Assembly: GCF_001640025.1 (NCBI RefSeq)
Contig: NC_031672.1
Span: forward strand, 4,526,001 to 4,590,000
DNA: 64,000 bases
Direction: 5' to 3'
From: Sugiyamaella lignohabitans
Taxonomy: Eukaryota > Ascomycota > Dipodascomycetes > Dipodascales > Trichomonascaceae
Shown piece by piece: positions 673-62,643 of the stretch. Below the pieces are notes generated by a model, which saw only the letters and a program-made list of their open reading frames with translations, did no database searches and had not been told where the DNA came from. The first letter of the stretch is position 1; each line of letters begins with the position of its first letter. The position numbers and the translations under genes were made by a program.

Positions 673-732
673 CGACTCGAGCGAAGCGAGAGGAGCAGCG
701 GGGTCTGGGGCGGAGCCCCAGCCGCCGGAGGC
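673..732 (-). repeat. GC element, solo 60-bp unit
   Basis: Runs from CGACTCGAG to CCGCCGGAGGC. It is 157 nt past the LCL3 stop, with the GCCTCCGGCGGC terminus nearest LCL3. Confidence 0.9.
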
Positions 733-889
733 AGAGCCCGACCAGCGGAAGCACGGATCCCAGGATGGATGTATTTACAGGAATGGAGAGTGTGAGTCTC
801 TGGAAGTTTATATACAGTGCTACTTTTGGAGTAATTAAGACTTGTCAGAGAAACGAAATGACCTTCAAATTTAAAATCGTTATATTACA

Positions 890-1633
890 CTAACTATTAC
901 TGTATTTTTTCTTGTATTCGCCTGGAGTAACCAGGGACTTGGTTCCTTTTCGGAACATGCCAATTTTTCTGTTTTTCGATGCTTGCTCAAGTTTGCGAAA
1001 CGCTGCTTCTTGACCATTGAACTCAGCACCCTGTTTAGCTTCATAAACAACAGCCCAACCCTGTCGTAACATTTCTTTACTGACATTGCGACGGCCGTTC
1101 CACTTCCACAAACTGGCCTGTCCCACTGTACGGCCATATTGATCGTTTACAAGTGGCATCACTCTGACATGTCTTCCCAAGACATATCCTCTTAACCAAT
1201 CAAGAGCCTCTGCTGAATATGGTTGAGCGGGTTTCCCAAAATGAGCTGCTTCTGGAGCATCAACACCACATAACCGAACATGAATAGTTTGACCTTTGAG
1301 TCCTCGACTGTTGACTTTTGGAGCATGCCGTAACCAGCCCCAACCACCTATTATTCCTCCTGGAGTATGATAGAAATGAAAGTTATCAGCATCTCCCACT
1401 GAAGTCACGAACCCATAGAGTGACCTCTTACGAAAAAATGACTGTGGTATCTTGTGTGAGTTGGGGATTCTGCGTAAATATGATCTGTACACGTAGAAAC
1501 CGAGTCCGAATGTTGAGCACAGAATAGTCGTCGGGATCAAAACCTGACTTGACAAAAATGACACCTCAGGCTGAATAGACTGTGCATCCTGCTCTTTTTG
1601 TCCCTTTTTTTCACTGTCTAATCGCTTGGACAT
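890..1633 (-). CDS. LCL3: Lcl3-like membrane-anchored staphylococcal-nuclease-fold endonuclease
   Basis: 247 residues from an ATG at 1633. A hydrophobic anchor covers about residues 31-50. A thermonuclease (SNase-like) domain follows from about residue 70 to 232, with VRLCGVDAPE (active-site arginine and acidic residues), a central DQYGRTVG segment and GWAVVYEAK. Length and anchor-plus-nuclease order match fungal Lcl3, a mitochondrial/membrane-associated putative endonuclease. No intron is needed. It is divergent from BOR1 across 736 bp and converges with GUP1. Confidence 0.9.
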   Translation of the reverse strand: MSKRLDSEKKGQKEQDAQSIQPEVSFLSSQVLIPTTILCSTFGLGFYVYRSYLRRIPNSHKIPQSFFRKRSLYGFVTSVGDADNFHFYHTPGGIIGGWGWLRHAPKVNSRGLKGQTIHVRLCGVDAPEAAHFGKPAQPYSAEALDWLRGYVLGRHVRVMPLVNDQYGRTVGQASLWKWNGRRNVSKEMLRQGWAVVYEAKQGAEFNGQEAAFRKLEQASKNRKIGMFRKGTKSLVTPGEYKKKYSNS

Positions 1634-2369
1634 GACAGATTAAATGCTTATTGTCAAATAAACTTGGTGCATATTATTGATGTTGATATGCAAATCAAGT
1701 AAACATGCACCTGCATCACATTTAGGTTTTCAGTGATCATTGGAGGTGCTCTTATAATGGTGATAAGGTATTTCGTTATTAATTCATAGTCATCAAAGAT
1801 CTAATGTTACAGCTTCCTAAGGCACTGATACTAGTCAAGTTCTCTAGATTTTTTTTTGATTATTGGGTTGCTTGCTAGTTTGTACTACATTTCCCTCATA
1901 ATATGTTTTTTCTTCATTTATATTCTATTTATTTTACTTTCAGAACTCGACTTAGCAACATTCATCTGTCAATTTTGATTTTTGATTTATCTGCATATTT
2001 AAATATCACGGATGACTGAAAAACATAAAAGTAGATTTGAGTTCCAAGATGTACCTTATCGCTAATATGCAGCCTCGCAGACTCAAATAAATATGTCCAG
2101 TGCAGGTACAAAAATTAATAAGCATGGATGATCCAGTCAAGACATATCGGTTTACGTCAGTTCTTCTCTTTTCTAGCTCGTAGTTTTGTTTCATTTCGCA
2201 GATAGGACGACGGTGTTTCACAAAGTTTTGCCATTTGGACACTTTAATTTTTACTGAATTTCAGGTTTTTACGAATATTAGAAGTCTTTTATAACTGAGA
2301 TTGCGGTTGTATGACTGTACAGCAATCGATGAGTCTGAAGATTGATATATTTCAAGATACAATCTATTT
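1634..2369. other. Divergent intergenic region between LCL3 and BOR1
   Basis: AT-rich DNA with T-runs near 1850 and 1930. No gene, RNA or GC element is seen; it presumably holds both promoters. Confidence 0.6.
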
Positions 2370-4421
2370 ATGATGGGGTCTTCAGGAGACGAACGTTCAT
2401 CACAGAACCGCAATGTCGGTCTTGCTAGATTCATACGAGGTACTATAGGATCTCCGTTCAAGGGCATCATCCATGATATAAAAGGAAGACTACCATATTA
2501 CCTGTCCGACTGGACAGATGGCTGGAATTACCGAGTCATACCGTCTATTACCTATATGTATTTTACAAATATTTTACCGGCGATAGCGTTTGCTCAGGAT
2601 ATGTTTGATAAAACCAACAATTCATATGGTGTTAATGAAGTACTATTGGCATCTGCCATGGGCGGTATAGTATTTGGTTTATTTGCAGGCCAGCCATTAT
2701 GTATAGTGGGTGTTACTGGACCGGTTGCAATTTTTAATTACACAGTCTACGAAATCGTCAATCCCAAAGGAATACCATATTTTCCATTCATGGCATGGGT
2801 TTATCTTTGGTCCATGGTCATGCATTTCATCATTGCTGCTCTTAACTGGGTTAATGGTCTGAGATATGTGACGAGGTTTTCCTGTGACATGTTTGGATTT
2901 TTTATTAGTGTTGTTTATATCCAAAAGGGTGTACAAATGTTGATGCGAGAATTTGATCACAGCAATGGTGATGTCGAAACCACTGCTATCAAGGCGTATC
3001 TTGCTATAGTGATTGCTCTGCTAGTAATGGTATTTGGCATGATCTCAATAATAATTGGTGAGTACTCGAAATTATTTAAACACTCGCTGCGTAAATTCTT
3101 TTCTGACTATGGATTACCATTGACAGTGGTCTTTTTTAGTGGGTTCGCATTTTTCCCTGGTCGTCTCAAAGATGCTCACTTGAACAGACTCAACATTACC
3201 GAAAGTTTTGTGCCTACTGCGATATCTGGAGGTCGTACCCATGGTTGGTTCATTCATTTCTGGGATATCAATGTCGGTGATGTGTTCCTCGCCATACCAT
3301 TTGCATTATTATTAACATCACTTTTCTACTTTGATCATAATGTGTCTTCACTTATATGTCAGGGCTCCGAATTCCCTCTCAAGAAGCCAGCCTCGTTTCA
3401 CTGGGACTTTTTTCTTCTTGGAATAACAACTGGCTTGGCAGGTATTCTTGGTATCCCAGCACCCAACGGCCTTATTCCACAGGCTCCACTGCATACAATG
3501 AGTCTTTGCGTATGGAAATATAGACGGGAAAACGAGAATCTGGAGAATGCTTGTGTATGGAAGAACCAGGAAGAAAATGGAACTACCTCGAGTGTCTGTG
3601 TATGGAAGTGCCTGCCGGAAGATGGATGTGGCCACAAAAGTGATGAGAGCAACAACAACAGTTTGTGTGAGATGAGAAATGATCATGCCAGGAATGGAAT
3701 AGAAACGGATTGTCAAATGCGGTTGGCTGATAGTGATAGAAGCGGAAGCGACGAAAGCAAAAGTGGCTCATGTAGTCCCCTTCCTATTTCAACTAAACTA
3801 CAGCCCTATATTGCAAGTGTTGTGGAACAAAGAGTAAGCAATCTTGTTCAAGGACTACTCATTCTCGGTACAATGTCTGGTCCACTTCTTGTAGTTCTTG
3901 GTTTATTACCCAAGGGAGTTCTTGCAGGACTATTCTGGATGATGGGTTTATCTGGACTAATGGGAAATGGTGTGACGGCCAAACTCAAGTATATTTTCAG
4001 TGATGAAGAGCATATCGATCCCAAGGATCCACTAAACAAGGTTCGGAAAAAGTATTTATATCTATTTGTGATAGTAGCATGCTTGGGTGCTGCTGGTGAA
4101 GTTGCAATTACAGACACCATAGCTGCGGTGGGATTTCCTGCTATATTGATTGGTCTTGTTGGAGTAGGTAAATTGCTGCCGAAAATAATTCCTGAACCAG
4201 ACATGTCAATCTTGGATGGACCTACGGGCTCGGAATTTATTCTAAGGAATCTTTCATCCGCATCCTGGTCAGCAAACAATGAGAACCATGAGGAAGTTCT
4301 TCCTACGGCGAATAACGATGCGGGTGTTGAGCTTCAACGACTTGAAGAGGGCCAACATCAGAGGCAAGACATGCTTCGTAGACGCAGCAGCCATAGTGGT
4401 AGAGAAGTAAGCATTAATTAA
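2370..4421 (+). CDS. BOR1: Bor1-type borate/anion transporter (SLC4-like)
   Basis: 683 residues, multispan, from an ATG at 2370 with a second ATG directly after. The N-terminal block with LPYYLSDWTDGWNYRVIPS, TYMYFTNILPAIAFA and GQPLCIVGVTGPVAIFN is the conserved HCO3-transporter core; family members export borate at the plasma membrane. Fungal Bor1 is usually about 570 residues. The excess is a hydrophilic, Cys-rich insertion at about residues 377-475, just after GIPAPNGLIPQAPLHT, carrying three degenerate CVWK repeats and Ser/Asn/Asp runs. The membrane domain resumes at KLQPYIASVVEQRVSNL. The insertion is in frame and has no visible splice sites, so I take it as coding. Convergent with MAD1. 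Confidence 0.93.
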   Translation: MMGSSGDERSSQNRNVGLARFIRGTIGSPFKGIIHDIKGRLPYYLSDWTDGWNYRVIPSITYMYFTNILPAIAFAQDMFDKTNNSYGVNEVLLASAMGGIVFGLFAGQPLCIVGVTGPVAIFNYTVYEIVNPKGIPYFPFMAWVYLWSMVMHFIIAALNWVNGLRYVTRFSCDMFGFFISVVYIQKGVQMLMREFDHSNGDVETTAIKAYLAIVIALLVMVFGMISIIIGEYSKLFKHSLRKFFSDYGLPLTVVFFSGFAFFPGRLKDAHLNRLNITESFVPTAISGGRTHGWFIHFWDINVGDVFLAIPFALLLTSLFYFDHNVSSLICQGSEFPLKKPASFHWDFFLLGITTGLAGILGIPAPNGLIPQAPLHTMSLCVWKYRRENENLENACVWKNQEENGTTSSVCVWKCLPEDGCGHKSDESNNNSLCEMRNDHARNGIETDCQMRLADSDRSGSDESKSGSCSPLPISTKLQPYIASVVEQRVSNLVQGLLILGTMSGPLLVVLGLLPKGVLAGLFWMMGLSGLMGNGVTAKLKYIFSDEEHIDPKDPLNKVRKKYLYLFVIVACLGAAGEVAITDTIAAVGFPAILIGLVGVGKLLPKIIPEPDMSILDGPTGSEFILRNLSSASWSANNENHEEVLPTANNDAGVELQRLEEGQHQRQDMLRRRSSHSGREVSIN

Positions 4422-7190: not shown

Positions 7191-7326
7191 GCCTCCGGCG
7201 GCTGGGACCTGCCCCAGACCCCGTAGCTCCTGCTTCGCAGGAGTTGCTCGGGGATTCCCGCTGAACCGACTCGAGCGAACCGAGAGGAGCCACGGGGTCT
7301 GGGGCAGAGCCCCAGCCGTCGGAGGC
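7191..7326. repeat. GC element, 136-bp inverted composite
   Basis: A short arm 7191-7243, ending in hairpin CTCCTGCTTCGCAGGAG, faces a 60-bp arm 7267-7326. It lies in the MAD1-MMS2 divergent promoter interval. Confidence 0.9.
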
Positions 7327-7350
7327 ACACCCCTTGCTTCGTATCGTGGT

Positions 7351-8114: not shown

Positions 8115-8174
8115 GCCTCCGGCGGCTGGGGCTCTGCCCCAGACCCCGTGGCTCCTCTCGCTTCGCTCGAGTCG
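8115..8174 (+). repeat. GC element, solo unit
   Basis: Sense-oriented, 105 nt after the MMS2 stop and before the convergent SOM1 end. Confidence 0.9.
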
Positions 8175-9130: not shown

Positions 9131-10596
9131 ATGAAGCCATTTATCGCTGGTCACGAGGATCTGATCCACGATGTTGCCTATGGTAAGTGAATTGAGCGAC
9201 CCCCTCCCCTCAAAACCCACCCAATCCCCAATCACGACCTCCTCCCGACGCCTCGACTCGAGCGAAGCGAGAGGAGCCACGGGGTCTGGGGCAGAGCCCC
9301 AGCCGCCGGAGGCATACATCCCCCAGCCAAACCATCCAAACACCGATCTAACAAAAAAACAGACTTCTATGGCAAAAGACTCGCGACATGTTCAGCAGAC
9401 CACCATATCAAGGTGTTTGACAAGACGGCCAATGGCTGGGAGCTGTCTGATTCGTGGAAAGCCCATGATGCTGCGGTTGTTAAAGTGACATGGGCAGGTC
9501 CTGAATATGGTCAACTGCTGGCGTCATGTTCTCATGATGCTAGTGTACGGATATTTGAAGAAGACCCTCGAGAACCCATTAACAGTGGCCGTCGATGGAA
9601 ACGAAAACACACGATTCTAGATTTCAGAGGTCCTTTGTACGACATTGAATTTGCGCCAAGTCATCTTGGTTTGAAACTAGCTTCGATAGGTTCAGACGGG
9701 GTGTTTCGCATTCACGAGGCAATGGATCCTAATACAATGGCATTCTGGACGACATCGGTCGAGGTTAATATGCTGACGAACCCCGTGGCCCGGCAATTAC
9801 AGTCGAGTTTTGCACTGTCGTGGTGTCCATCGATGTTTTTCAAGGAATATATCGTGGCATGTGTGCTGGAAGACGCATTTATTTATCAACGAGACCATCT
9901 CGGCAAATACGTACGAGTGGCTCAACTCACCGAACACAAGGGACTTATTCGCGATGTAGCGTGGGCCCCATCCATGGGCCGAGGTTACCAATTGATTGCA
10001 ACCGCATCTAAAGACGGATACGTTCGAATCTTTAAAATCACCTCCGATACCAACGGAGCCGACACTCTATCACTAACAGCAAGCGCTCTTGACGACGACA
10101 ACGACGACGATGACGAGTCATCCCCGCCACGAGCTCCTGCCAATCTCAAAGTCGAGCTGCTGTCTCAATTCGACGACCACCACGGCGAGGTCTGGCGTGT
10201 GTCGTGGAACCTGACGGGTAAGTGTTTTAACGAGGCTGGTTGTGCCTCCGGCGGCTGGGGCTCCGCCCCAGACCCCGTGGCTCCTGCTTCGCAGGAGATT
10301 GCTGGGACCGTAGGCGCCCGACTCGAGCGTAGCGAGAGGAGCCGGGGGGTCTGGGGCGCAGCCCCAGCCACCGGAGGTATGCCCGTTCGAGGACGTGACT
10401 AACTGGAGGTGTAGGTACTATTTTGGCGTCGGCAGGTGACGATGGCAAGGTGAGGTTCTGGAAGGCCTCGTATTCGAGCGAGTTCCAGTGTATGGCGGTC
10501 GTGTCTGCCGAGCAACGGTAAGTGAAAGTGTGAGTGTTGGCTGGGTTTTACTAACGATTTAATAGCAGAGAAGAGGCTATAGATGTGGACGACTAG
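9131..10596 (+). CDS. SEH1: Seh1 nucleoporin/SEACAT WD40 protein (three introns)
   Basis: Exons 9131-9182, 9363-10217, 10415-10517 and 10566-10596 give 346 residues starting MKPFIAGHEDLIHDVAYDFYG. WD40 blades include CSADHHIKVFD, LASCSHDASVRIF, LIATASKDGYVRIF and LASAGDDGKVRFW. Seh1 is a beta-propeller of the Nup84 complex and of the SEA complex. Splice phases join codons exactly (Y-D-FYG; L-T-G-T-I-L). Introns 1 and 2 contain GC elements ending 49 and 36 nt before the acceptor. Intron 3 is 48 nt with TACTAAC and a tandem acceptor (TAGCAG), allowing products that differ by one arginine. Confidence 0.93.
9254..9313 (-). repeat. GC element inside SEH1 intron 1
   Basis: Solo 60-bp unit; its GGAGGC end is 49 nt from the 3' splice site, upstream of branch sequence ATCTAAC. 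Confidence 0.92.
10243..10378. repeat. GC element composite inside SEH1 intron 2
   Basis: 136 bp: short arm with CTCCTGCTTCGCAGGAG hairpin, spacer TTGCTGGGACCG-like, then 60-bp arm. It ends 36 nt before the acceptor; branch GACTAAC. Confidence 0.92.
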
Positions 10597-12548: not shown

Positions 12549-12636
12549 GCCTCCGGCGGCTGGGGCTCCGCCCCAGACCCCGCTGCTCCTCTCGCTTCGC
12601 TCGAGTCGGGCGTCGACGGCCCCAGCCGCCGGAGGC
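12549..12636. repeat. GC element, partial composite between NSA1 and CUE3
   Basis: A full 60-bp sense unit 12549-12608, then only the terminal part of an inverted arm, 12619-12636. It serves the 3' side of both convergent genes. Confidence 0.88.
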
Positions 12637-14266: not shown

Positions 14267-14899
14267 TTCACTCGTATTTCTTTGTTTCGTAATCTTCGTA
14301 ACTCTAGGGGTACAGGAAATGGTTCTCGAGTCAGAGCTTCATGGGATATTGCAATGCAGATCAAATATAGTATAGCATGTCATTGTCATGTGACTTGCAT
14401 TACATCCCTAAGATGTCGAGTCAAGTTGCAATAAAAGTTCGATTTAAAATTGTTCTGCCCCAGAGGTGGTGGTTCCTGCTTCATAGGGGTTGGCTGGGAC
14501 CGTCGACGAAACGACTCGAGCGAAGCGAGAGGAGCAGCCAGGGTCTGGGGCGGAGCCCCAGCCGCCGGAGGCATGCCCCGACCCGTAGGAAGCAGGAAGT
14601 GCAATTATCAAAGAGAGATATATTTTGTTGAAATTATGGATCTAATGATATAAAGGACATGTTTGCATTAAGCGGGATTATGTGCAAACAGGCTGTGTTT
14701 GGGAACTGGACTGCGTGTTATGCTTTGAGTTGGACATACGTAAGAGGACAGAGGACATCTTCCATAATAACCAGGCTGATTGAACATAAATAGTTGTTCT
14801 TGTGACGCAGGTTCCAGAGTTCTGACGTAGTTCCAGTAGACTGGCGTAGTTCAGAGTTTTTGTCGCTAATTCCGAAGTTTCGCTGGCATTAATCACACC
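14267..14899. other. Intergenic region upstream of CUE3 and of the small membrane-protein gene
   Basis: Holds a decayed GC composite (14455-14572) and otherwise no supported gene. Confidence 0.5.
14455..14572. repeat. GC element, composite with a decayed first arm
   Basis: The 61-bp inverted arm 14512-14572 is intact. The preceding arm is diverged but keeps CTGCCCCAGA, a CTGCTTC hairpin remnant and GCTGGGACCGTCGACG. Confidence 0.8.
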
Positions 14900-18801: not shown

Positions 18802-18861
18802 GCCTCCGGCGGCTGGGGCTGCGCCCCAGACCCCCTGGCTCCTCTCGCTTCGCTCGAGTCG
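18802..18861 (+). repeat. GC element, solo unit
   Basis: Sense to the FHA gene, 117 nt after its stop. It is 48 nt from the convergent CDS1 end in the non-preferred orientation. Confidence 0.9.
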
Positions 18862-21482: not shown

Positions 21483-21536
21483 GCCTCCGGCGGCTGGGGC
21501 TCCGCCCCAGACCCTGGTTGTGCTCGCTTCGCGAGC
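21483..21536 (+). repeat. GC element, short form with GCTCGCTTCGCGAGC hairpin
   Basis: Unit ends in the alternative perfect hairpin GCTCGCTTCGCGAGC followed by TGCTGGG. Confidence 0.88.
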
Positions 21537-23695: not shown

Positions 23696-23832
23696 GCCTC
23701 CGGCGGCTGGGGCTGTGCCCCAGACCCCCCGGCTCCTCTCGCTTCGCTCGAGTCGTTCCCGTCGACGGCCCCAGCAGTCTCCTGCGAAGCAGGAGCTACG
23801 GGGTCTGGGGCAGAGCCCCAGCCGCCGGAGGC
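23696..23832. repeat. GC element, 137-bp composite between POF1 and ECM33
   Basis: Long arm first (23696-23755), spacer with CGTCGACGG, then a short arm opening with CTCCTGCGAAGCAGGAG. The arm order is inverse to the 7191 copy. Confidence 0.92.
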
Positions 23833-23936: not shown

Positions 23937-26900
23937 TTAAACGAATTGGAAAACAAAGGCGGCCAGAGCACCGAAAGCAGAGGTGTATTCCATGGCCAAG
24001 GGGACGGCACCGCCCTTAGAGCTCGAGGTGGTGCTGGCGGCAGCGGTGGCAGAGGCAGAGCCGCTGCCAGAAGAGGCGCCAGAGGTGGCGTGGATGGCAA
24101 CAGAGGTCGACACAGACTTGGCCTTGCAGACATAAGAGTCTCCTTGGATATCACCGTCAGAGTGAGCTTGGTTCCAGGACGAACAGTTGAACTTGGACGA
24201 AGAAGACTCAATGTCAACACCACCCTTGACCAAAGTCAAAGAGGGCAATTGGGCAGAGCTGAAGTTACCAGTGAAGTCAATGGCACCACCAACAGACTTG
24301 ACCTTGGGGAATCCGAGAACAGAACCCAATTGGGTGTTGTTGGCAATTTGGAATCCTCCGCCAACAGTGCTCAATTGAGGGAAAGAGACGTTGGAAAGTT
24401 GGTCATTAGAAACAATAGCCAAAGAACCACCGATTTGAGTGAGTTGGGGGAAGGCAAGTCCGTTGACGGTGTTGTTAATGAAACCAGCAGAAGCATTGAC
24501 AACAGTGATGTTGGGCATCGAGATCGACGAAACGTCTCTGAAAGTGATGTTGTTGGCCCATTGAAGACTGGGGAACGAGGCGGAAACCTGTTGAGCATTG
24601 AACGAGATGTCCAAAGATTGAGCAACAGTTTGAAGGTTGACATTGACCTCGTTGAGATATCTGTTGTTGTTGATATCAAAAGTGTCAACATTGTCAACAT
24701 TGATACCCTCAAGAGAAGTCAAGGAAGTGTCGGAAATGGTGATGCTCTTGGCTTGGTTAACAACGTTGTTGAACTGGATGCTACCAAGACCAGCCAAGTG
24801 CAACCAGTAGATAGCACCAACAGAGGTCAATTGAGGCATTGCCAAAGTACTCAAAGCAGGGAGAATCTCCAAATCAAGAGTTCCACCAATGGATTGAAGA
24901 GAAGGAGCATTGATCGAGCCCAAGTTGGTGGCATTGTTGGCAACCAAGTCACCGGTGATCTTTTGAACACCGTTGATGTTGGCCGACGTCAAAGCAGGGT
25001 CAAGAGTCAAAGTACCGTCAAAAGTTTGACAACCGGCAATGCCGTCCAAATCGGATTGCTGCTTAGCAGTCAAATCACTGGAACAGGCAGAGTTGGAGGC
25101 AGCTGGAATCTGTTAGTGGCTGGGTTTACTGGGGCGGGGGGTGCTGCCTCCGGCGGCTGGGGCTCTGCCCCAGACCCCGTGGCTCGCTTCGCTCGTTGCT
25201 GGGATCGTCTGGTTTGGGTTGTGGATCTGGTTGTGTGGTTCAGTGGTGGTTCATGGATGATTCGCTGGTTGTTCAGTTGGGTAACTTATCAAGATCTCAC
25301 TCTCTCACGGTCTCACAGTCTCAAAATCTCTTGGTCTGATGGTCTGATGGTCTGGTAGTTCTCAGGTCATTTCCGATTGACTTTCAATCTCCGTGGTTTA
25401 TCTGCTTTCTCCCAACCCGGAATTCACTTCTTCCTCAGTTATTTCACCCGGTCTGACCAGATTTGATCTGAGCTGACCCAGTTTGGCTGATTCATCACCT
25501 GCTTATCTGAACATTTCAGGATCGACTGAAATTCCCCCTGATTGCGTCTTTTCTCCCAAAAGACTCTCTCGGTGGTTAGGGAGTACAGGTGCAGCAGCTC
25601 TCCGAAACCGCTCGTGGTATCCATGTTACAGAAATCCAGAATCAGCCAACTGAAGTCCAACTGGTTATGACCTGCTAACCCTCACCCACATTCTCTGTCT
25701 CTAATCAGATCCCAAACCTAATCTAAGATAAAGCCAGGGTTAGGTCTGGTTGCCGACATGCATGCTACTGGATCTAGTCAAAGCACAACGCCGGTTCTAG
25801 CCCGTTTAGGTCCCTCGTGTCAACGTGAAAAAAAAAACCTGAAACCACTCGGAGATTATCGCTTACTCTCGGAATCAAAAGCCGAGCATGCTTCATTTTC
25901 AATTTCGATCCACTTTGTTTTAATCATTGCTGGGTATTTTTGACCTTCTGTACTTTTCTTAATAAACTGGTTTTTATGGTATGTGGCATCATCTGTGAAA
26001 TATACCTACCATAAGGCGTGTGTCATGGGCGGCTGAGTATAAACTTCAGTCGCACCAGCGACAACAACCACTCCGCAGCCTGACAATTAAATTGCTTCTC
26101 TGAAATTCAAATCTTCCAAAAAAATACAGTTGCTGGGTAATATGTAATAAACAGAGCCACACAAACATTAATAATAATAGATGCCATAGATTTAATTGCT
26201 GTTTAAGCCTGCCCAGCTTGTATTGGTGATATTAGTGTGATAACACTAGTGGTACCTGTTTCGGGGCTAGAGCTAAAAATAGCATTTTTCACTGATATCG
26301 CCAACTGTTTTAGCTATCGATTGATCTGCCATCCAAATGGGTATTTCAAATAGTGGAGACAGGTGCTGTGGTTGAAATATCCATACGAGTAGTGATAGGG
26401 AGAAGTGACCAGTAGTGGTTGTAAAACGATTGGAGCGAGGTATAACCAGCCAGCAATCTTGCAGAAATAACGGTCTGTAAACAATAACATGTATCGTTGT
26501 TACGTTGTGCTGTAGATGTGTAGTGTAATGTAGTACTAGTTAGATTGCCAGTAATCTCAACGACCATCGTGGTCAAAGTGGTGAGTTGTCACCATCGTCA
26601 CTGGATTTTTAACTGAATGCTAATACCATAACATAAAGAGTGCTCTACTGTCAATCAGTGAGGTACAGCAGCTAGACCCATGGTCAATTCAGAACAACCA
26701 GGTTTCATCCAGACAATCCGGTACCATCGATACAATCCAGTACTCCACTACACATTACCCAACAGCCCAACAGTCAACCATCATTCAATCGACTACAATC
26801 CAACTCCATCAAAGCAACTCCTATCAACCTTATCACCCCTACACCCCACCTCCTGTCAACCCCTATATCCATCAATCCAATCCAGTTTTGTAATCGCCGA

Positions 26901-27822: not shown

Positions 27823-27882
27823 GCCTCCGGCGGCTGGGGCTCCGCCCCAGACCCCGTGGCTCCTCTCGCTTCGCTCGAGTCG
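27823..27882 (+). repeat. GC element, solo unit
   Basis: 60-bp consensus copy ending CGCTCGAGTCG; no gene adjacent. Confidence 0.9.
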
Positions 27883-28527: not shown

Positions 28528-28662
28528 GCCTCCGGCGGCTGGGGCTTTGCCCCAGACCCCGTGGCTTCTCTCGCTCCGCTCGAGTCGGTCGCCCTGACCC
28601 CTTAGTCTCTCCTGCGAAGCAGGAGCAACGGGGTCTGGGGCGGAGCCCCAGCCGCCGGAGGC
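28528..28662. repeat. GC element, 135-bp composite
   Basis: Long arm 28528-28587, spacer, short arm with CTCCTGCGAAGCAGGAG. Confidence 0.92.
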
Positions 28663-29642: not shown

Positions 29643-29702
29643 GCCTCCGGCGGCTGGGGCTCCGCCCCAGACCCCGCGGCTCCTCTCGCTTCGCTCGAGT
29701 CG
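29643..29702 (+). repeat. GC element, solo unit
   Basis: 60-bp consensus copy next to an AT-rich block. Confidence 0.9.
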
Positions 29703-30099: not shown

Positions 30100-30154
30100 G
30101 CTCGGCGAAGCCGAGCACAACGGGGTCTGGGGCAGCGCCCCAGCCGCCGGAGGC
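30100..30154 (-). repeat. GC element, short form with GCTCGGCGAAGCCGAGC hairpin
   Basis: Same orientation as the copy at 30203 and about 103 bp from it. The tail hairpin differs in sequence but pairs perfectly. Confidence 0.88.
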
Positions 30155-30202: not shown

Positions 30203-30257
30203 GCTCCGCGAAGCGGAGCACAGCGGGGTCTGGGGCAGCGCCCCAGCCGCCGGAGGC
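30203..30257 (-). repeat. GC element, short form with GCTCCGCGAAGCGGAGC hairpin
   Basis: 164 nt after the OM14 stop, with the GCCTCC terminus toward OM14. Confidence 0.88.
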
Positions 30258-33779: not shown

Positions 33780-33940
33780 GCCTCCGGCGGCTGGGGCTCT
33801 GCTCCAGACCCCGCTGCTCCTCTCGCTTCGCTCGAGTCGGGTTTGGGGGTCCCCAACAACAGAACCCGTCCCCGACGTAACGACTCGAGCGAAGCGAGAG
33901 GAGCCGGGGGGTCTGGGGCGCAGCCCCAGCCGCCGGAGGC
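33780..33940. repeat. GC element pair, two long arms
   Basis: 33780-33839 sense and 33881-33940 inverted; begins 27 nt after the aldolase stop. Confidence 0.92.
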
Positions 33941-34849: not shown

Positions 34850-34905
34850 GCCTCCAGCGGCTGGGGCGCTGCCCCAGACCCCGAAGCTCGCTTCGCTGGT
34901 TACGC
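34850..34905 (+). repeat. GC element, diverged short form
   Basis: GCCTCCAGCGGCTGGGGCGC start, GCTCGCTTCGC hairpin half, then decays. Confidence 0.8.
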
Positions 34906-35231: not shown

Positions 35232-35291
35232 CGACTCGAGCGAAGCGAGAGGAGCCACGGGGTCTGGGGCGGAGCCCCAGCCGCCGGAGGC
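35232..35291 (-). repeat. GC element, solo unit upstream of RPS2
   Basis: 60-bp consensus copy about 240 bp before the RPS2 ATG, GGAGGC end toward the gene. Confidence 0.9.
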
Positions 35292-36400: not shown

Positions 36401-36550
36401 GCCTCCGGCGGCTGCGGAGCTTGCTGGGACCGTGGGATCTTGGATTGAATCTGTTTCGGTAGAAAAACAGACACGAGACACCCCCGGATGCGACTCGAGC
36501 GCAGCGAGAGGAGCCACGGGGTCTGGGGCGGAGCCCCAGCCGCCGGAGGC
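36401..36550. repeat. GC element pair, first arm truncated
   Basis: Arm 1 (36401-36434) has lost its middle and jumps to GCTTGCTGGGACCGT; arm 2 (36491-36550) is complete and marks the left edge of the FKBP-EMC1 duplication. Confidence 0.88.
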
Positions 36551-37650: not shown

Positions 37651-37811
37651 GCCTCCGGCGGCCGGGCTCCGCCCGGACCTGGTTGTGCTCGCTTCGCGAG
37701 CGATTTGGGGGTCCTGTCACTGCCAAAATCAGCTGCTGGCTCGACGGTCCAAGCCGCTTCGCGAAGCGAAGCACAACCAGGGTCTGGGGCGGAGCCCCAG
37801 CCGCCGGAGGC
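37651..37811. repeat. GC element composite, CCGGGCTCCGCCCGG subfamily
   Basis: The first hairpin is CCGGGCTCCGCCCGG rather than CTGGGGC-x3-GCCCCAG, and the tail hairpin GCTCGCTTCGCGAGC. The inverted arm keeps the standard first hairpin. Lies upstream of FKBP copy A. Confidence 0.9.
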
Positions 37812-37897
37812 AGACCTCCGACCCCCGTGAACAGTCACAAAAGTACACAGAAATATTAATTACAGGAGTAGTAAGCATGCTCGAAGAGTGTGTTTAG

Positions 37898-38107
37898 AGC
37901 TCGCCGACGCCCCATTGCTGGTCAATGCGTTTTTTGAGGGCGTAGCGACGCACGATAATGGTCACGGTCAGGATGGTCATGATGGTGTAGATGAGTTTGG
38001 GTTTCTCGAAGCTGACAGTGAGCATGTCGAAAGGGCGAGACGGCGTGATGCGTGTGAAGAACAGGTCTACGGGCCCGAATCCGGCAATCAGTGATGTTGA
38101 TTCGAGT
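37898..38107 (-). pseudogene. Truncated EMC1 3' fragment
   Basis: Encodes the last about 69 residues of Emc1 (up to ...QQWGVGEL) with a handful of base differences from the intact gene. It ends abruptly at GATTCGAG next to a GC element. No start, so a by-product of the tandem duplication. Confidence 0.92.
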
Positions 38108-38108
38108 C

Positions 38109-38168
38109 CGACTCGAGCGCAGCGAGAGGAGCCACGGGGTCTGGGGCGGAGCCCCAGCCGCCGGAGGC
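38109..38168 (-). repeat. GC element at the duplication junction
   Basis: 60-bp unit abutting the EMC1 fragment; identical in place to 36491-36550 of copy A. It is 43 nt after the FKBP copy B stop. Confidence 0.92.
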
Positions 38169-38211
38169 AGATGGGCCACTCAAAGAACTATAGCATTAAA
38201 ACGGACGTGAG

Positions 38212-38850: not shown

Positions 38851-38953
38851 TGTAACGTTGAATATTGCCAAATCCACCTCTTCCGCTTCACAACTTATGT
38901 ACGTGGCGGTGTCACGTGCGTTTTTAGGGGGAGCATCGCCGGGGTCGGGACGT

Positions 38954-39115
38954 GCCTCCGGCGGCCGGGCTCCGCCCGGACCTGGTTGTGCTCGCTTCGC
39001 GAGCGATTTGGGGGGTCATGTCACTGCCAAAATCAGCTGCTGGCTCGACGGTCCAAGCCGCTTCGCGAAGCGAAGCACAACCAGGGTCTGGGGCGGAGCC
39101 CCAGCCGCCGGAGGC
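38954..39115. repeat. GC element composite, CCGGGCTCCGCCCGG subfamily (duplicate of 37651 copy)
   Basis: Between FKBP copy B and EMC1; 82 nt after the EMC1 stop. Confidence 0.9.
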
Positions 39116-39197
39116 AGACCTCCGACCCCTGTGAACAGTCACAAAAGTACACAGAAATATTAATTACAGGAGTAGTAAGCATGCTCGAAGAGTGTGT

Positions 39198-42494: not shown

Positions 42495-45400
42495 ATGTTC
42501 GGGGGATTTGGCAGTGCTCCTCCTGGAGGAGGGGGCGGAGGATCAGGGAACACAGGTAGTGTTTTTGGAACACAATCTGCGTTTTCAGGTCCACCAGCTG
42601 GAAATGGAGGATTCACATTTGGCCAACCAAATCAACAGAATCAGCAACCGCCACCACAACAGCAGTCAAATTGGTCGAACAAATGGCAGAATCCACAACT
42701 CCAGCAACAAAATCAGAAGAATCAACAGGCCAGACAGTTTGGAAAGCCGAATCGGGGCCAGTTTCAAGGCAACAACAGTTCTCGAGGTGGTTTCAATGGC
42801 AATGCCAGTGGTAGTTCGAGTTTCGGTAACCAGAATGGTAGTGCTTTTACAGGTGGATCAACTTCATCAGGAGCTTTTGACCAACAACAAAAAGGAGGCA
42901 ACAACAGGCCCAGAGGAGGGGGAATGAATCGCGGAAGAGGAGGGTTTGGACAGAACCGAGGTGGTAAATTTCAGCAGCAGCAGCAGCCCCAAAATCAACA
43001 ACAAACGAAGAATGTATTTCAGAGTAAACGCTCAATTCCTGCTCCAGGATCTGGTAGTCTGACTGCACCAGGGTTCAAGCCCAGGTCACGACCACCACGC
43101 CAAGTACCCGAGTTCTTACTACCAGGATCAGCTTCGATAAAACAAGTGCTATGGAAACAGGATCCATGGGACCTTTCGAACCAGCAGGCCATGGCACGTC
43201 TCGAACAGCAGTTTTCAAGTTCCGACATGCAAACGCTCTATGAACAGGTAGGATCTCATTGATAGAGGAGCCCGACCCCGTTACTGCATCTGCCAGAATC
43301 CGACTCGAGCGAAGCGAGAGGAGCAATGGGGTCTGGGGCAACGCCCCAGCCGCCGGAGGCATGGATCCCTCCCGAGAGAAACTAACACACCACACAGATG
43401 CAGAGTATGAGAGAGAAAGAGAGACAAGAAATGGAGTCTAGAGGGCTTGTAGATAGACAGGATGTGAAGAAGAAGCTGCAAGATGCCATTACGTTTGTTG
43501 GTTCTTGTACCGATATGTGTCCCATTTTTGAACGAGTTCGACGAACGTATGAGAACAACGTCAAACAGCTTGAAAAGGACCCTCAGACCGGAAAAGTGAC
43601 GAGCCAGTATGCAGTCAAGGCGTTTTCAAGACCAGCAGCAGGCCAGCCACCACCACTGCCATCAGACGTGCGACCTCCTCATATTTTAGTGAAAACGCTG
43701 CAGTATCTTAGTGAAAAAATCTTACCACAGCTACCAGCCAGTCATTCATTTTTGTGGGATAGAACGAGATCCATCAGACAGGATTTTACGTACCAAAACT
43801 ACTCGGGTCCGGAGGCTATCGAGTGTAATGAGATAATCGCCCGAATTCATATTATCTGTCTTCATGTAATGGCGGGTCATGATCAGGAGTACTCGAAACA
43901 GCAGGAGATTGAACAGCTCACGAAAACGTTACAGACACTATCGGAATTTTATAACGACAATCGGAAACGAGGGCTTCCAGACAGTCCTAATGAGCCGGAA
44001 ATGAGAGCGTTTCAGCTTCTGTGTCATCTGAAGGATCCTGATGTAGAGTTCCAAGTCCAGCAGTTGCCGATACATGTGTTTAAAGATGCGAGAATCCAAA
44101 GAGCTCTGGAGCTGCGAAATCTAGTTCAACAGAATAGAATTCTCGAAAAGGGGCATATATATACAGAAAATGCTGCGAATATTTTTGCGCTATTTTTTGA
44201 AAAGCTAGCCACTGATGGTAGTACGCCACCACTGTATTTATGTCTTTTGGAAAGCTCGTTCAATGATATACGACTGGCTTCGTTAAATGCCATGTCAAGA
44301 GCATATCATTCTCGAGGAAAGCCGTATTTTATCGACCGACTGACGAGTATGCTGGGGTTTGACAGTGAGCAAGAGGGGTTAGAATTCTGCCAGTATTACG
44401 ACTTGACTGTGGTTGATGATGCCAGTGGAAAGAAATGTGTGGATTTGGTTTCATACAATCAAAGTACGGTTAATAATAAACAGCCCAAACAGCAGCCTTT
44501 TAGTCTACTCGTTGATAGACGGGTAGGAGCTGGTTATAATCAGCTGGTGGTACCGAGTAGAATTGACAGTGCGTCCACAACTCCTGCTGCAAGTGGTGGA
44601 ATAGGAACTGGATTTGGTGGATTCTCTGCCAGGAGTAACAGTAGCTTTGGAAATAGTATAAATGGAGTTGCCAAACCTGTGTTCGGTAGCGGCATTCCCA
44701 GCCCTGGTCAGACTCCTAATATATTTGCGGCTAATAAAGAGGCAACCTTGTTTGGTGGTACCAAGTCTTCAATTCCAAGCATGCCTTCTGCTCCGCCAGC
44801 AACCAAGGCTCAAACATGGGCTAATATTGCTAGTGGAGCTGTCCCTGCAACTACAGAACCAACGCCAGCGGTCAAACAGGAGCAGTCTGCTCTACAAACG
44901 CAACCTTTCAGTCTGTCAGGTGGCAGGGGAATTGGTCTAGCTAAACCCCAATCTGTGGGAATTCCTTTAACAGCTAGCACTGCATCATCAGGTACAACAC
45001 CAAATTCAATGTTCGGCTCTTCTAAACCATTTTCATTTGGTGGCGACACAATCAAAGCAACATCGACATCACTCTTACCAAATAAAACACCACAACCATC
45101 AAGTAATGTTTTTACCAATCCTTTTGCAAGTAACGCATCTGCAGATAAGAAACAAGCACCAGACTCGGCGTCAACAGTTTCACCTCTCGGCCAAACGCCG
45201 GCTTCAACACCCGGTCCCAAACCAGCATTACCAACCGAACCAGTAGCATTACCACCTCCACCAAAACCTGTTTATACAGATTCGATGGTCAAAAAGCAGA
45301 TAGATAGAATGCTTCGATCAGCAGTGTCTGGCGAAATCAGCTCGAATATTCTCCCCAGCCAGTGGAAGTCGATAACACAGGCTCGTCAGGAAAGAAAAGC

Positions 45401-46755: not shown

Positions 46756-46930
46756 GCCTCCGGCGGCTGGGGCTTTGCCCCAGACCCCATTGCTCCTCTC
46801 GCTTCGCTCGAGTCGGGCTCCGGGACCCTGTCCGTACCCCTGTGACCTGCCTGCTGGCGAACTCCAAGCCCGACTCGAGCGGAGCGAGAGGAGCAGCGGG
46901 GTCTGGGGCGGAGCCCCAGCCGCCGGAGGC
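46756..46930. repeat. GC element pair between SAC3 and the convergent gene
   Basis: Long arms 46756-46815 and 46871-46930. They lie 85 nt and 83 nt from the two stop codons respectively. Confidence 0.92.
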
Positions 46931-50225: not shown

Positions 50226-50280
50226 GCCTCCGGCGGCTGGGGCTCCGCCCCAGACCCTGGTTGCTCCTGCTTCGCAGGAG
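50226..50280 (+). repeat. GC element, short form
   Basis: Ends with CTCCTGCTTCGCAGGAG hairpin and TTGGCTAGG remnant. Confidence 0.9.
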
Positions 50281-50912: not shown

Positions 50913-50962
50913 GCCTCCGGCGGCCGGGCTCCGCCCGGACCCGTGGTGCTCGCTTCGCGAGC
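50913..50962 (+). repeat. GC element, CCGGGCTCCGCCCGG subfamily, solo
   Basis: Third locus with the altered first hairpin, tail GCTCGCTTCGCGAGC. Confidence 0.88.
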
Positions 50963-51125: not shown

Positions 51126-51262
51126 GCCTCCGGCGACTGGGACTCTGCCCCAGACCCCGCTGCTCCTCTCGCTCCGCTCGAGTCGGTTCCCTCGACGGTC
51201 CCAGCAGTCTCCTGCGAAGCAGGAGCTACGGGGTCTGGGGCAGCGCCCCAGCCGCCGGAGGC
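51126..51262. repeat. GC element, 137-bp composite
   Basis: Long arm, spacer CTCGACGGTCCCAGCAGT, then short arm with CTCCTGCGAAGCAGGAG. Confidence 0.92.
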
Positions 51263-51916: not shown

Positions 51917-52057
51917 GCCTCCGGCGGCTGGGGCTCCGCCCCAGACCCTGGTTGCTCCTGCTTCAGGAGTTTTTATTGACTGGGACCCCCGCGGGAACGA
52001 CTCGAGCGCAGCGAGAGGAGCCACGGGGTCTGGGGCAACGCCCCAGCCGCCGGAGGC
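51917..52057. repeat. GC element, 141-bp composite
   Basis: Short arm (hairpin partly lost, CTCCTGCTTCAGGAG) plus long inverted arm. A detached GCTCGCTCCGCGAGC hairpin lies about 40 bp to the left. Confidence 0.88.
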
Positions 52058-52281: not shown

Positions 52282-52341
52282 CGACTCGACCGCAGCGAGA
52301 GGAGCCACGGGGTCTGGGGCAGAGCCCCAGCCGCCAGAGGC
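52282..52341 (-). repeat. GC element, solo unit with substitutions
   Basis: Carries CGACTCGACC and CCGCCAGAGGC changes; lies upstream of the next gene. Confidence 0.85.
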
Positions 52342-54402: not shown

Positions 54403-54462
54403 GCCTCCGGCGGCTGGGGCTGCGCCCCAGACCCCACTGCTCCTCTCGCTTCGCTCGAGTCG
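54403..54462 (+). repeat. GC element, solo unit
   Basis: 30 nt after the stop of the preceding gene, sense orientation. Confidence 0.92.
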
Positions 54463-54502: not shown

Positions 54503-54646
54503 GCCTCCGGCGGCTGGGGCCCTGCCCCAGACCCCGTGGCTCCTCTCGCTGCGCTCGAGTCGGTTCTGCGGGGGACCTTCAGTCAATAAAACTCCTGCGA
54601 AGCAGGAGCAACCAGGGTCTGGGGCGGAGCCCCAGCCGCCGGAGGC
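54503..54646. repeat. GC element, composite
   Basis: Long arm 54503-54562 and short arm with CTCCTGCGAAGCAGGAG. With the preceding solo it makes three arms in 245 bp. Confidence 0.92.
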
Positions 54647-55303: not shown

Positions 55304-55471
55304 GCCTCCGGCGGCTGGGGCTCCGCCCCAGACCCTGGTTGCTCCTCTCGCTTCGCTCGAGTCGGGCGTCAGGAGACCAGATAACCCAAAAAGTCGCGAT
55401 TCCCCAAACCCGACTCGAGCGAAGCGAGAGGAGCAACCAGGGTCTGGGGCGGAGCCCCAGCCGCCGGAGGC
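55304..55471. repeat. GC element pair between GPI19 and PPZ1
   Basis: Long arms 55304-55364 and 55411-55471, 48 nt and 91 nt from the two stops. Confidence 0.92.
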
Positions 55472-57663: not shown

Positions 57664-57723
57664 CGACTCGAGCGAAGCGAGAGGAGCAGCGGGGTCTGGG
57701 GCGCAGCCCCAGCCGCCGGAGGC
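57664..57723 (-). repeat. GC element upstream of PPZ1
   Basis: 60-bp unit in the probable 5'-UTR intron; here the CGAGTCG end faces the acceptor, opposite to the coding introns. Confidence 0.9.
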
Positions 57724-58495: not shown

Positions 58496-58555
58496 GCCTC
58501 CGGCGGCTGGGGCTGTGCCCCAGCCGCCACTGCTCCTCTCGCTGCGCTCGAGTCG
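58496..58555 (+). repeat. GC element, solo variant
   Basis: Reads GCCCCAGCCGCCACTGCTCC where other copies have GCCCCAGACCCCG. Confidence 0.88.
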
Positions 58556-58651: not shown

Positions 58652-58712
58652 GCCTCCGGCGGCTGGGGCTCCGCCCCAGACCCTGGTAGCTCCTCTCGCT
58701 TCGCTCAAGTCG
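58652..58712 (+). repeat. GC element, solo unit
   Basis: 61 bp, tail CGCTCAAGTCG. Confidence 0.9.
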
Positions 58713-59880: not shown

Positions 59881-59919
59881 GGGCCAATTGCTGATTTAGC
59901 GCAGACCGTCCCCCAAGCC

Positions 59920-59979
59920 CGACTCGAGCGAAGCGAGAGGAGCAGCGGGGTCTGGGGCGGAGCCCCAGCCGCCGGAGGC
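59920..59979 (-). repeat. GC element, solo unit
   Basis: 130 nt after the TIF3 stop, GCCTCC terminus toward TIF3. Confidence 0.92.
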
Positions 59980-60109: not shown

Positions 60110-62015
60110 TTACTTGCGGCCGCCTCTTTTGTTGGGCACGACGTTCCAGTCGCCGGACTCGAGCTCTTCAGGAGTGGCTTCAGTAGTCAGCAGGGCCTCA
60201 GCGGCGGTCTTTTGATCCTTTTTAGGCTCGTCAGCACCGGCGGCAGTCGAGTCGGCAGGTTGAGAACCGGCAGCAGCAGCAGCGTCAGTTTCGTCTTCAT
60301 CGTCGTCCTCAGTCTTCAAAACCTCGAATCTCTTACGGAGTTGCTCGGCTTTGGCCTCGTCCTTTTGCTTTCTCTCTTCCTCACGGGCTTTAATCTCGTC
60401 GCGGTGCTTCTTCTCGGCCTCGAATCTCTCATGTTCGTGCTGAACATACTTCTCACCAACCTCCTCTAACTTCTTAGTAGTATCAACAGGCTTGGCCGAT
60501 CCAAATACTGACGAACGATGGCTGTCATTAGGAGATGGGGCGTCGTTCGAACTGCCGGCAGAAACAGTTCGCGGCTTAAGATCCAGCTTCTTACGGCCAG
60601 CGCGAGGAGCAGTGGTTTGACCCGATGCACTGGGTCCGCCACGGCTTCCACGCCAGTCGCTGTTGTTATCGGCCTCGGTAACAGGTCTTTCTTTACCTTC
60701 TCTGGGCTCACGGGGTTCTCTAGGTTCTCTTCGACGAGGAGGAAGAGGTCCTCTTCTCTCCCAATTGTCGAAATCACGCTCTTTTCCGTCGTCTTCGTTA
60801 CGACTAGAACGACGTCTTTCGTCGTGTGGAGGACCACCGGCAGGAGGTCCTCTTCTCTCCCAGTTTTCATAATCACGACCATCGTCTTCACGAGGAGGAC
60901 GGGGTCCACGTCTAAGACCGGCTTCTCCACCTTCTTCACCCTCATGGTGACGACGGTATCTGGGGTGAACATTCTCAAGATTAACAGCAGGAGGACCACG
61001 TCTCTCCCAGTTGTCGTAATCACGAGAATCGTCCTCGACAGGAGGTCCTCTTCTGTCGGGTCTGTCACCTCCTCTAGGAGGTAATGGACCTCTTCTCTCC
61101 CAATTGTCGTAGTCACGGTTATCATCGAATCCTGGAGCACCACCGCTGCCTCTTCTTCTTCTTGGTCCAAAGTCATCTGGACCTCCTGATAATGGGCCTG
61201 CTTGGTTGGATCTCCAGTCACCGCTGAACTTGTCGTCTTCACGACGTTCACTAACAACAACTCTCAACGAACGGTTGAGGAGCGAAGTTCCGTCTAACTT
61301 AAGAGCCTCGACTAACGAGTCACGGGTCTCGAACTCGACAAATCCATAGCCTCTCAAACGGCCGGAAACACTGTCACGAGGTAATCGCACTGACACAACC
61401 TTATACTTGTCGCTATCAGCAAACAGTTCCTTGATGTTCTCTTCAGCCACTTCATAATCCAAATTCAACAAACGAGCAGTGAAAGGAGCCGAGTCGGGAA
61501 TAGGGACTGGCTCACGGTCGTTTCGACGGTAATCAGAGGGTTCAGCACGAGTCCATCCGTCGCTGTCACGGTCGGCTCCAGGACCTCTTCTGCCGAAATC
61601 CGAGCCTTCAGAACGACCCCAACTGCTATCACCGCCACGAGATCCGCCTGATGGAGGCAATGGGTTGCTGAACGAGCTGGGAAGGTCGTCGTCAGCCCAT
61701 GAGGCTCCACCGACCGATCCATACTGGTCATTGGACATGAAGTCCTGGAACGTCATTTTCACTCCCTTCTTCTTAGGAGCTGGGTTTTCTTGTTAGTTTT
61801 CTGGGGACGGGGTGCTGCCTCCGGCGGCTGGGGCTCCGCCCCAGACCCTGGTAGCTCCTCTCGCTTCGCTCGAGTCGGGCGAGGGGGCTGTCCAGTGGTT
61901 TGGGGGGCCTGAGTTCGCGGTTTGGCGGCGGTTTTTTCCGTGGATTTGGCATCCTGGTCTTGCCCTGTGCGCTCCGTAGACCGCTGGGCCTGGATTCTGG
62001 CCGCTACTCACCCAT
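60110..62015 (-). CDS. TIF3: Tif3 (eIF4B) translation initiation factor (one intron, 4-nt first exon)
   Basis: Exon 1 is 62015-62012 (ATGG), exon 2 is 61779-60110; the 232-nt intron has GTGAGT, AACTAAC and ACCCAG. Splicing gives MAPKKKGVKMTFQDFMSND, matching the MAPPKK start of yeast Tif3. The 557-residue product has a Gly/Ser/Trp-rich N terminus (GGASWADDDLPSS), an RRM at about 95-170 (FTARLLNLDYEVAEENIKEL, GRLRGYGFVEFETRDSL), then four RD(Y/F)(D/E)NWERRGP repeats in an Arg/Gly/Asp-rich region, and a charged C terminus. It stimulates eIF4A-dependent mRNA recruitment. The intron carries a GC element 37 nt from the acceptor. Confidence 0.93.
61817..61877 (+). repeat. GC element inside the TIF3 intron
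   Basis: Antisense to TIF3; the GCCTCC end is 37 nt from the 3' splice site. Confidence 0.92.
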
Positions 62016-62186
62016 TTTGAATGTTTCTTCCTGCGGGCCTAACTATCAATGGTGGCTTGTTTTGCTGGTAAAATGAGGTCTACACTACCATTTTCGTTAG
62101 TAAAAAGTCATTCACCCCCCAAATCAACACCCCACAACCTCCCCATCGCCCTTCCAACCCCTCAGATTCCCTCACTCCCCCTCACT

Positions 62187-62246
62187 CGACTCGAGCGAAG
62201 CGAGAGGAGCCACGGGGTCTGGGGCAGAGCCCCAGCCGCCGGAGGC
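62187..62246 (-). repeat. GC element, solo unit
   Basis: 60-bp consensus copy upstream of TIF3. Confidence 0.9.
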
Positions 62247-62499
62247 ACAACCCCACCCCATCCCACACACTCAACTCCCAATCCACACCCACCGCACCAG
62301 CCAGTCACACTTACACTAAGAAAAATCCAGTTGCTAGTACTTCAATTGACTTTGATTGATACAAATCAGTCCTGTCTCTCGCTTCCTCACTCCTTGCAAC
62401 GTAAAATCGTTCGTCCTCTGCACCGACTTTTTTCAGGGCAAGGGCTCTGAAAATTTCCCACGCCGCTCGCCGCGGGGCGCGCGGCAATGGTGGCCACGT

Positions 62500-62643
62500 G
62501 CCTCCGGCGGCAGGGGCTCCGCCCCAGACCCTGGTTGCTCCTGCTTCGCAGGAGTTTTTATTTACGGGGGCCCCCACGGAAACGACTCGAGCGCAGCGAG
62601 AGGAGCAGCCAGGGTCTGGGGCGGAGCCCCAGCCGCCGGAGGC
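62500..62643. repeat. GC element, 144-bp composite
   Basis: Short arm with CTCCTGCTTCGCAGGAG, spacer, long arm with CGACTCGAGCGCAGCGAG. Confidence 0.92.

Follow-up and report, generated by a model that had tools for sequence, protein, structure and literature searches.

A family of hairpin-forming repeats in the nuclear genome of the yeast Sugiyamaella lignohabitans, with matching core sequences in bacteria

Organisation of the repeats

We analysed a stretch of 64,000 nucleotides from the yeast Sugiyamaella lignohabitans (contig NC_031672.1 of assembly GCF_001640025.1, positions 4,526,001 to 4,590,000 of the forward strand; hereafter the window), which carries many copies of a short G/C-rich hairpin repeat. 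The core of this repeat, GCCTCCGGCGGCTGGGGCNNNGCCCCAGACCC, was matched 53 times in the window at up to three mismatches, and 100 dinucleotide shuffles gave no match. A fuzzy search for element ends yielded 42 loci, comprising 17 inward-facing composites of two arms and 25 single arms, or about one locus per 1.5 kb; fuzzy end matches at 56912 and 62511 are not elements and were left out of this count. Both the number of loci and their spacing bear out a preliminary description of the window made from its sequence alone.

Each arm is about 50–60 nt long and consists, in order, of a T, GCCTCCGGCGGC, a 7-bp core hairpin, ACCC, a short junction and a tail. In the core hairpin CTGGGGC pairs with GCCCCAG around three variable nucleotides, with one C common to GCCTCCGGCGGC and the stem, and ACCC follows directly. 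Arm statistics were collected from a contiguous 264-kb sample that includes the window (C1:4326001-4590000). The base preceding GCCTCC was T in 168 of 176 arms, and the core loop read TNC in 127 of 176, the loop tips of the complementary strand being mostly GNA. The tails of 184 arms (up to four mismatches) were sorted into 98 of type S (CTCCTCTCGCTNCGCTCGAGTCG), 72 of type H, which is a hairpin around GCTTCGC and includes a few parsing leftovers, and 14 others. All four bases occur at the tip N of the S tail, the remainder of which is nearly fixed. Information content is near-invariant within the arm and weak outside it, in a G-rich zone of 14 nt beyond the 5′ end and a zone of about 16–19 nt after the tail.

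The preliminary description listed five tail sequences as hairpins in which the sequence changes and the pairing stays. All five are present, but the commonest, CTCCTCTCGCTNCGCTCGAGTCG, does not form a full Watson-Crick hairpin, giving four pairs when folded computationally. Read on the other strand it is CGACTCGAGC-GNA-GCGAGAGGAG, which we presume could fold through two tandem G.A/A.G (sheared) steps. GCGNAGC is an unusually stable DNA hairpin.

In the 264-kb sample, 203 fuzzy ends were resolved into 61 composites and 81 unpaired ends, a few of the latter not being elements. The composites were 45 S/H, 7 S/S (158–211 bp), 3 H/H and 6 unsorted, and 40 of the 45 S/H composites measured 132–145 bp. 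A size of 135–137 bp had been proposed from five composites in the window, for which we measured 136, 135, 137, 135 and 137 bp; it holds for S/H arm pairs but not for composites generally, which reach 250 bp.

Composites in the window with the H arm first lie at 7191..7326 (136 bp), 10244..10378 (135 bp), 51917..52057 (141 bp) and 62500..62643 (144 bp), and those with the S arm first at 23696..23832 (137 bp), 28528..28662 (135 bp), 32541..32672 (132 bp), 51126..51262 (137 bp) and 54503..54646 (144 bp). Two S arms are joined at 30869..31026 (158 bp), 33780..33940 (161 bp), 46756..46930 (175 bp) and 55304..55471 (168 bp). Truncated composites are found at 12549..12636 (88 bp; an S arm and a partial arm) and 36401..36550 (150 bp; first arm truncated). 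The H/H composite at 37651..37811 (161 bp) has one arm with an alternative, compensated core stem, CCGGGC-TCC-GCCCGG, which is also present in its duplicate at 38954..39115 (162 bp) and in a forward-strand single arm with an H tail at 50913..50962.

Single arms with S tails occupy the forward strand at 8115..8174 (identical to the 60-mer used below as a query), 18802..18861, 27823..27882, 29643..29702, 54403..54462, 58496..58555, 58652..58712 and 61817..61877, and the reverse strand at 673..732, 9254..9313, 14512..14572, 35232..35291, 38109..38168 (a duplicate of arm 36491-36550), 43301..43360, 52282..52341, 57664..57723, 59920..59979 and 62187..62246. Further single arms with H tails are on the forward strand at 21483..21536 (GCTCGCTTCGCGAGC) and 50226..50280 and on the reverse strand at 30100..30154 (GCTCGGCTTCGCCGAGC) and 30203..30257 (GCTCCGCTTCGCGGAGC). 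Degenerate tails mark the forward-strand single arms at 25146..25195 and 34850..34899.

Genome-wide extraction of copies, a check proposed with the preliminary description, returned 6,182 cores at up to one mismatch (3,074 + 3,108), and none with a reversed control pattern. Copies are present on all four contigs of the 15.93-Mb genome. These contigs, of 2.3–5.9 Mb, are chromosome-sized, which supports the earlier characterisation of the repeats as nuclear and non-autonomous; the CBS10342 genome is reported to comprise 16.0 Mb, 4 chromosomes and 6,820 genes (PMC5499181). Counting 60–75 bp per copy, the family makes up about 2.3–2.9% of the genome. The 264-kb sample holds 185 cores at up to five mismatches, 147 of them perfect at the 29 fixed core positions. 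An assembly artefact was rejected because the repeats form subfamilies, show a gene-context bias and occur on all four contigs. No Rfam family matched the window at gathering score, and for one composite searched against Rfam all matches were microRNA-like and fell below threshold, the best scoring 31.3 bits where 77 were required. Literature searches returned no description of this yeast family among the matches listed; the core strings, searched as literal text, hit only papers that, judged by their listing, are not about repeats. The 60-mer arm query had no match among plasmids and phages.

Folding, covariation and allele linkage

The composites starting at 10244, 23696 and 51126 were folded as single-stranded DNA. 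Four folds of these three composites gave −56.7 to −65.9 kcal/mol, with z scores of −8.3 to −11.3 against shuffles; a single arm gave a z score of about −3 on either strand. Covariation was measured on 23 distinct cores hand-picked from the yeast and five bacterial genomes, by counts that, like all the pairing counts given here, take no account of relatedness. In these cores 98.5% of stem cells were paired (88.9% after shuffling), 18 cells had changed on both sides (5.4 after shuffling), and the covariation score was 0.359, compared with 0.151 for shuffles and at most 0.133 for slid alignments. Pair 13-33 was CG in 12 cores, UA in 9 and AU in 2, and pair 14-32 was GC in 16 and AU in 7, with no broken cell in either. 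In the 54 cores taken from one Myxococcota bin, pairing was kept in 363 of 378 stem cells, against a mean of 313.8 and a maximum of 332 for shuffles. For 12 distinct yeast H tails 38 of 60 cells were paired against 20.4, a count equalled in none of 5000 shuffles. In one S tail a pair is preserved through a double change, and three tails form perfect hairpins resembling type S. Constraint on pairing, as proposed in the preliminary description, is thus upheld for tails and core stems, which beat shuffles and slid controls on most measures, but not on two measures that are given below.

A young burst of copying would link the S-tail tip N to the core haplotype, and no such linkage was seen: in 111 S arms N was independent of both core loop (p 0.23) and junction (p 0.52). 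None of 3000 shuffles reproduced either the tight association of core loop with junction or the association of loop type with tail type. In H arms junction and stem are linked, partly through the way the parser cuts them. As N is unlinked to the core haplotype and linkers are unlinked to arm alleles (see below), tips and linkers have turned over and the paired parts have not. Rather than long constraint, this could also reflect rapid change of the tips as copies are made.

Target sites and candidate enzymes

Target-site duplications, which had been suggested as a check on mobility, were sought at the 61 composites for lengths of 2–9 and offsets of 0–3, and no consistent direct repeat was found. 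In the best two settings shown, flanks sharing 4 to 6 bases occurred at no more than 1 of the 61 composites and flanks sharing 7 or more at none. Matches of two and three bases were few, with 3 of 61 (z 3.1) in the adjacent two-base setting. Pairing between flanks was considered and rejected, since only a weak inverted similarity was seen beyond a shared G/C-rich bias (5.49 against 5.06 over positions 1–12, p 0.0085; local inverted score 5.74 against 5.16, 0 of 300). A self-comparison of the 264-kb sample gave 155 alignments and no filled/empty pair among paralogues.

Candidate mobilising enzymes were sought with domain models. Y1_Tnp had no match in the yeast genome, with a control that matched in 5 of 14 genomes, and was absent from 11 of 12 bacterial carriers of the repeat (see below), the one positive having a single repeat copy. 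Phage_integrase likewise had no match in the yeast, with a control that matched in 14 of 14 genomes, although a divergent fungal enzyme could escape this search. There was no match to the Helitron Rep protein, yet its control was silent in all 14 genomes. RVT_1 matched 13 times in the yeast genome, at places read as retrotransposons, some of the matches having equal scores on different contigs. Carriage of the repeat as retrotransposon cargo was rejected, none of eight fetched RVT_1 loci (L149-L156, 3.5–3.8 kb each) holding the exact end motif.

Matching repeats in bacteria

The 28-base core GCCTCCGGCGGCTGGGG..CCCCAGACCCC recurs in bacteria, often as inward-facing pairs. GTDB genomes were scanned with the exact pattern GCCTCCGGCGGCTGGGG-(2-8)-CCCCAGACCCC, which was found in at least 120 stretches; 19 of the 80 listed hold an exact inward pair. 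The carriers among these 80 are Acetobacteraceae, Roseococcus, Sphingomonadales, Polymorphobacter and other Alphaproteobacteria, together with Myxococcota, a deltaproteobacterium and one Clostridia bin. Twelve carriers contained 272, 49, 221, 25, 1, 33, 45, 9, 1, 166, 178 and 40 copies, and none contained the reversed pattern. The distribution is patchy, as the exact pattern was absent from all 384 other sampled genomes of the class of one carrier, G006. A looser pattern, whose reversed control gave 1–2 matches in eight genomes, matched 14 of 120 genomes of G006's family, with multiple copies in G006, G438 and G512 and one copy in each of the other 11. It also detected other stems: three types in G004, CAGGGGC/GCCCCTG in G438 and AAGGGG/CCCCTT in G512. 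Rfam had no match in 11 bacterial loci (of 120).

Two filled/empty pairs were found between related bacteria, with untidy borders, and one arm (L102/L146) has been lost in the second genome. At orthologous bacterial loci 269 of 286 non-loop arm positions were equal, compared with 375 of 578 in the flanks, a figure for the arms that is inflated because most loci entered the comparison by matching the pattern exactly, and on which we do not rely.

Seven uncultivated viral contigs (L158-L164) carry the bacterial form, five of them as inward pairs about 91–93 bp apart, through either phage carriage or host flanks. A variant with a CAAAGGG stem was found in one viral contig.

Genomic setting

Open reading frames (ORFs) were used as proxies for genes. 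Of 121 loci, 27 lay inside ORFs of at least 120 amino acids, against 58.4 expected; these ORFs are only 120–226 amino acids long, so many may not be genes. The 93 intergenic loci were distributed as 24 between convergent ORFs (10.4 expected, p 0.0005), 45 between tandem ORFs (47.3 expected) and 24 between divergent ORFs (35.3 expected), corresponding to 1.62, 0.67 and 0.48 loci per kb respectively. The median distance was 166 bp to the nearest 3′ end and 595 bp to the nearest 5′ end. This bias towards convergent genes fits tolerance as well as function.

A host function would account for the enrichment if selection kept the hairpins identical, for instance because they mark boundaries or end transcripts where genes converge, and if they acted as bidirectional terminators in bacteria. 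A run of T follows 90 of 228 bacterial arm ends, as in intrinsic terminators, but 0 of 184 yeast arms, and to our knowledge Pol II does not use terminators of this kind. The many tandem and divergent loci do not suit such a role, the patchy presence in bacteria is unlike that of a core function, and a selfish element avoiding genes and promoters would show the same bias. We regard maintenance by the host as improbable.

Element density followed background GC content computed with the elements masked (r 0.91 over 22 bins of 12 kb; 0.82 with 200-bp padding; 0.64–0.87 with wider padding and bins of 12–24 kb). Background GC ranged from 0.41 to 0.50 between 12-kb bins of the 264-kb sample. Density was also correlated with GC at third codon positions (GC3) of 67 ORFs (r 0.48). 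These correlations would be expected if recombination alone were at work, with hairpins breaking DNA or stalling forks, repair proceeding from other copies, and GC-biased gene conversion both maintaining the repeats and raising local GC, with no enzyme of their own kind and no recent transposition. The failure of the Y1_Tnp and Phage_integrase searches to give a candidate suits this scheme. It is also favoured by the tendency of arms joined in one composite to have the same junction class (concordance 0.70 against 0.50, p 0.003; Fisher p 0.002 for S/H composites only) and by a weak tendency of this kind among neighbouring loci at 0.3–3 kb (p 0.017), but core loops showed no clear similarity between neighbours past 300 bp (p 0.11). 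Conversion by itself does not account for how the repeats reached thousands of sites, for the unvarying S/H layout or for the conserved outer T, and insertions may simply be drawn to GC-rich regions or be tolerated there. On balance we think recombination alone an unlikely explanation.

The shared junction class led us to drop free assortment of the two arms; an earlier fine-allele test, on 31 composites fitting a strict parser, had been null through low power. As the junction lies where the two arms can pair, the sharing may reflect arm–arm pairing, or else co-inheritance or exchange.

A tandem segmental duplication at 36491-39411 contains an FKBP-type peptidyl-prolyl isomerase gene, its copies being 98.6% identical over 1,176 alignment columns. 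One of its borders coincides with the tail side of an arm (36491 / 38109), where recombination between two arms would place it, and this counts in favour of the recombination scheme.

By eye, a SEH1-like WD-repeat gene at 9182-10564 has apparently three introns, two of which hold an element (the single arm at 9254 in one and the composite at 10244 in the other). Introns are reported for only 5% of S. lignohabitans genes (PMC5499181). An origin of introns from the elements was tested and rejected, with 2 intron-like contexts at 120 loci against a random mean of 3.3 (maximum 7); the test is weak, because it demanded open exons of 240 nt and missed both copies in the SEH1-like gene.

Comparison with known repeats and proposed mechanism

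REP-like hairpins are known from prokaryotes, where many are associated with a transposase. The yeast family resembles REP/REPIN sequences with RAYT (Y1 HUH) enzymes in its short palindromic arms, its inward doublets (the 61 yeast composites and 19 bacterial stretches described above) and its many near-identical extragenic copies. It works like a REPIN and fails two defining features of REP/RAYT systems. Yeast arms lack the GTAG end tag, ending instead in T|GCCTCC and the tail, with GTAG only inside some junctions, and the searches above found no cognate Y1 transposase in the yeast and Y1_Tnp in one bacterial carrier of 12. Unlike bacterial REPs and REPINs, the family lies in a nuclear genome and has an extra tail hairpin.

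The nearest precedent is the CGTC-tagged REPs, reported as palindromic repeats that form dimers, mostly in alpha-Proteobacteria, without a dedicated transposase (PMC3733652). Compared by description rather than by consensus sequence, they share with our repeats the palindromic dimers and the lack of a dedicated transposase in the enzyme searches above. The bacterial arms inspected show no such tag following ACCCC, and a degenerate CGTC is seen only in linkers, in many of those of the yeast.

Miniature inverted-repeat transposable elements (MITEs) and mitochondrial GC clusters, with which the repeats had been compared in the preliminary description, are not the best comparison, because there is no consistent target duplication at the 61 composites and the sequence recurs in bacteria as REPIN-like pairs. 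MITEs are likewise short and non-coding with terminal inverted repeats, a feature of the composites, but here every arm comprises more than one hairpin and single arms are as common as composites. Yeast mitochondrial GC clusters are also short, GC-rich, mobile-like palindromes with modular shuffling, but they are mitochondrial, differ in sequence and are flanked by AG or ACT direct repeats (PMC4478555), which have no consistent counterpart here. The short palindromic repeats of Volvox carteri, noncoding hairpins of about 50 nt, occur in the nucleus too, and its copies there are judged by the authors of that study to be inert organelle transfers, often degenerate and forming about 0.06% of nuclear DNA (PMC2670323); in the yeast family 147 of 185 cores are perfect and copies fill about 2–3% of the genome.

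The explanation we favour, to which we give about even weight, is that these repeats are a REPIN-like, non-autonomous family of hairpin elements in the yeast nucleus. The arms would act as hairpins in single-stranded DNA, on the lagging strand or during repair or recombination, and would be copied either by a putative enzyme acting in trans or through break repair with exchange of short tracts. New copies would enter G/C-rich sites and leave the target unduplicated. We propose that only folding copies could donate, which would keep stems identical and let tips vary. The family most likely would have come from bacteria, then multiplied to its present share of the genome, with copies persisting mostly where they are least harmful, between convergent genes. 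Mobility, a mobiliser and transfer from bacteria are parts of this scheme that we infer. We think that the folded single strand is the active form, because this accounts for the contrast between fixed and free positions and does not call for a duplicated target.

A broader proposal, which we hold tentatively and consider rather doubtful, is that of a cross-domain hairpin element: one non-coding family, active as folded single strands, that would spread in several bacterial groups and, following horizontal transfer, in a eukaryotic nucleus, lacking a dedicated transposase, relying on universal replication and repair, and keeping its stems as only folded copies donate. More than 6,000 nuclear cores identical to a bacterial repeat, in genomes where the REP transposase is not found, would imply either that non-coding selfish DNA has passed from one domain to another or that both domains share a way of spreading it. 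Experiments in a yeast and in bacterial cultures could address each possibility, and the copies, in their thousands, form a natural resource for comparing tips, stems and flanks, whose rates of change differ greatly.

Several observations weigh against the REPIN-like explanation. No mobiliser, insertion event or yeast empty site was seen. Two of the five covariation measures were no better than shuffles in the 23 cores (‘pairs changed on both sides’, 2 against 1.8; ‘further pair types’, 4 against 5.1). The 264-kb sample is one stretch of one chromosome, with about 0.65 cores per kb against an average of 0.39. Observations on what is copied as a unit disagree: in 31 composites linker similarity was uncorrelated with arm alleles (Mantel p 0.33), the S junction alone of five alleles being associated (p 0.011), and within composites one arm's core loop showed no association with the other's (Fisher p 1.0), but junction class is shared, as described above. 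Bacterial repeats differ from those of the yeast in the spacing of GGGG and CCCC (6–8 nt, against 5 in yeast), in the base at −1 (mostly G, not T) and in having no tail hairpin in the arms inspected.

These last differences may reflect convergence or a shared binding constraint. Under convergence yeast and bacterial cores would be unrelated, GC-rich and very stable hairpins of this form simply being favoured. Loops and flanks differ as well, and as compensated changes are freely accepted in bacterial stems, the two groups may have come to share the stem CTGGGG by coincidence. The 28 fixed bases that agree, however, include GCCTCCGGCGGC and the ACCCC ends, which are dispensable for the core hairpin; inward pairs occur in yeast and bacteria alike; and 0.02 chance matches to the exact pattern are expected across the whole collection at 70% GC. 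Convergence seems to us quite unlikely.

Other features

A 21-bp minisatellite adjoins a degenerate 12-bp CTGAACCAACTG repeat in the window, at 59276-59559 and 59604-59894. Elsewhere, a pair of 134-bp sequences (L017:8315-8448 and L025:3743-3876) is 94% identical and 5S rRNA-like by eye; dispersed 5S rRNA genes are reported for S. lignohabitans (PMC5499181).

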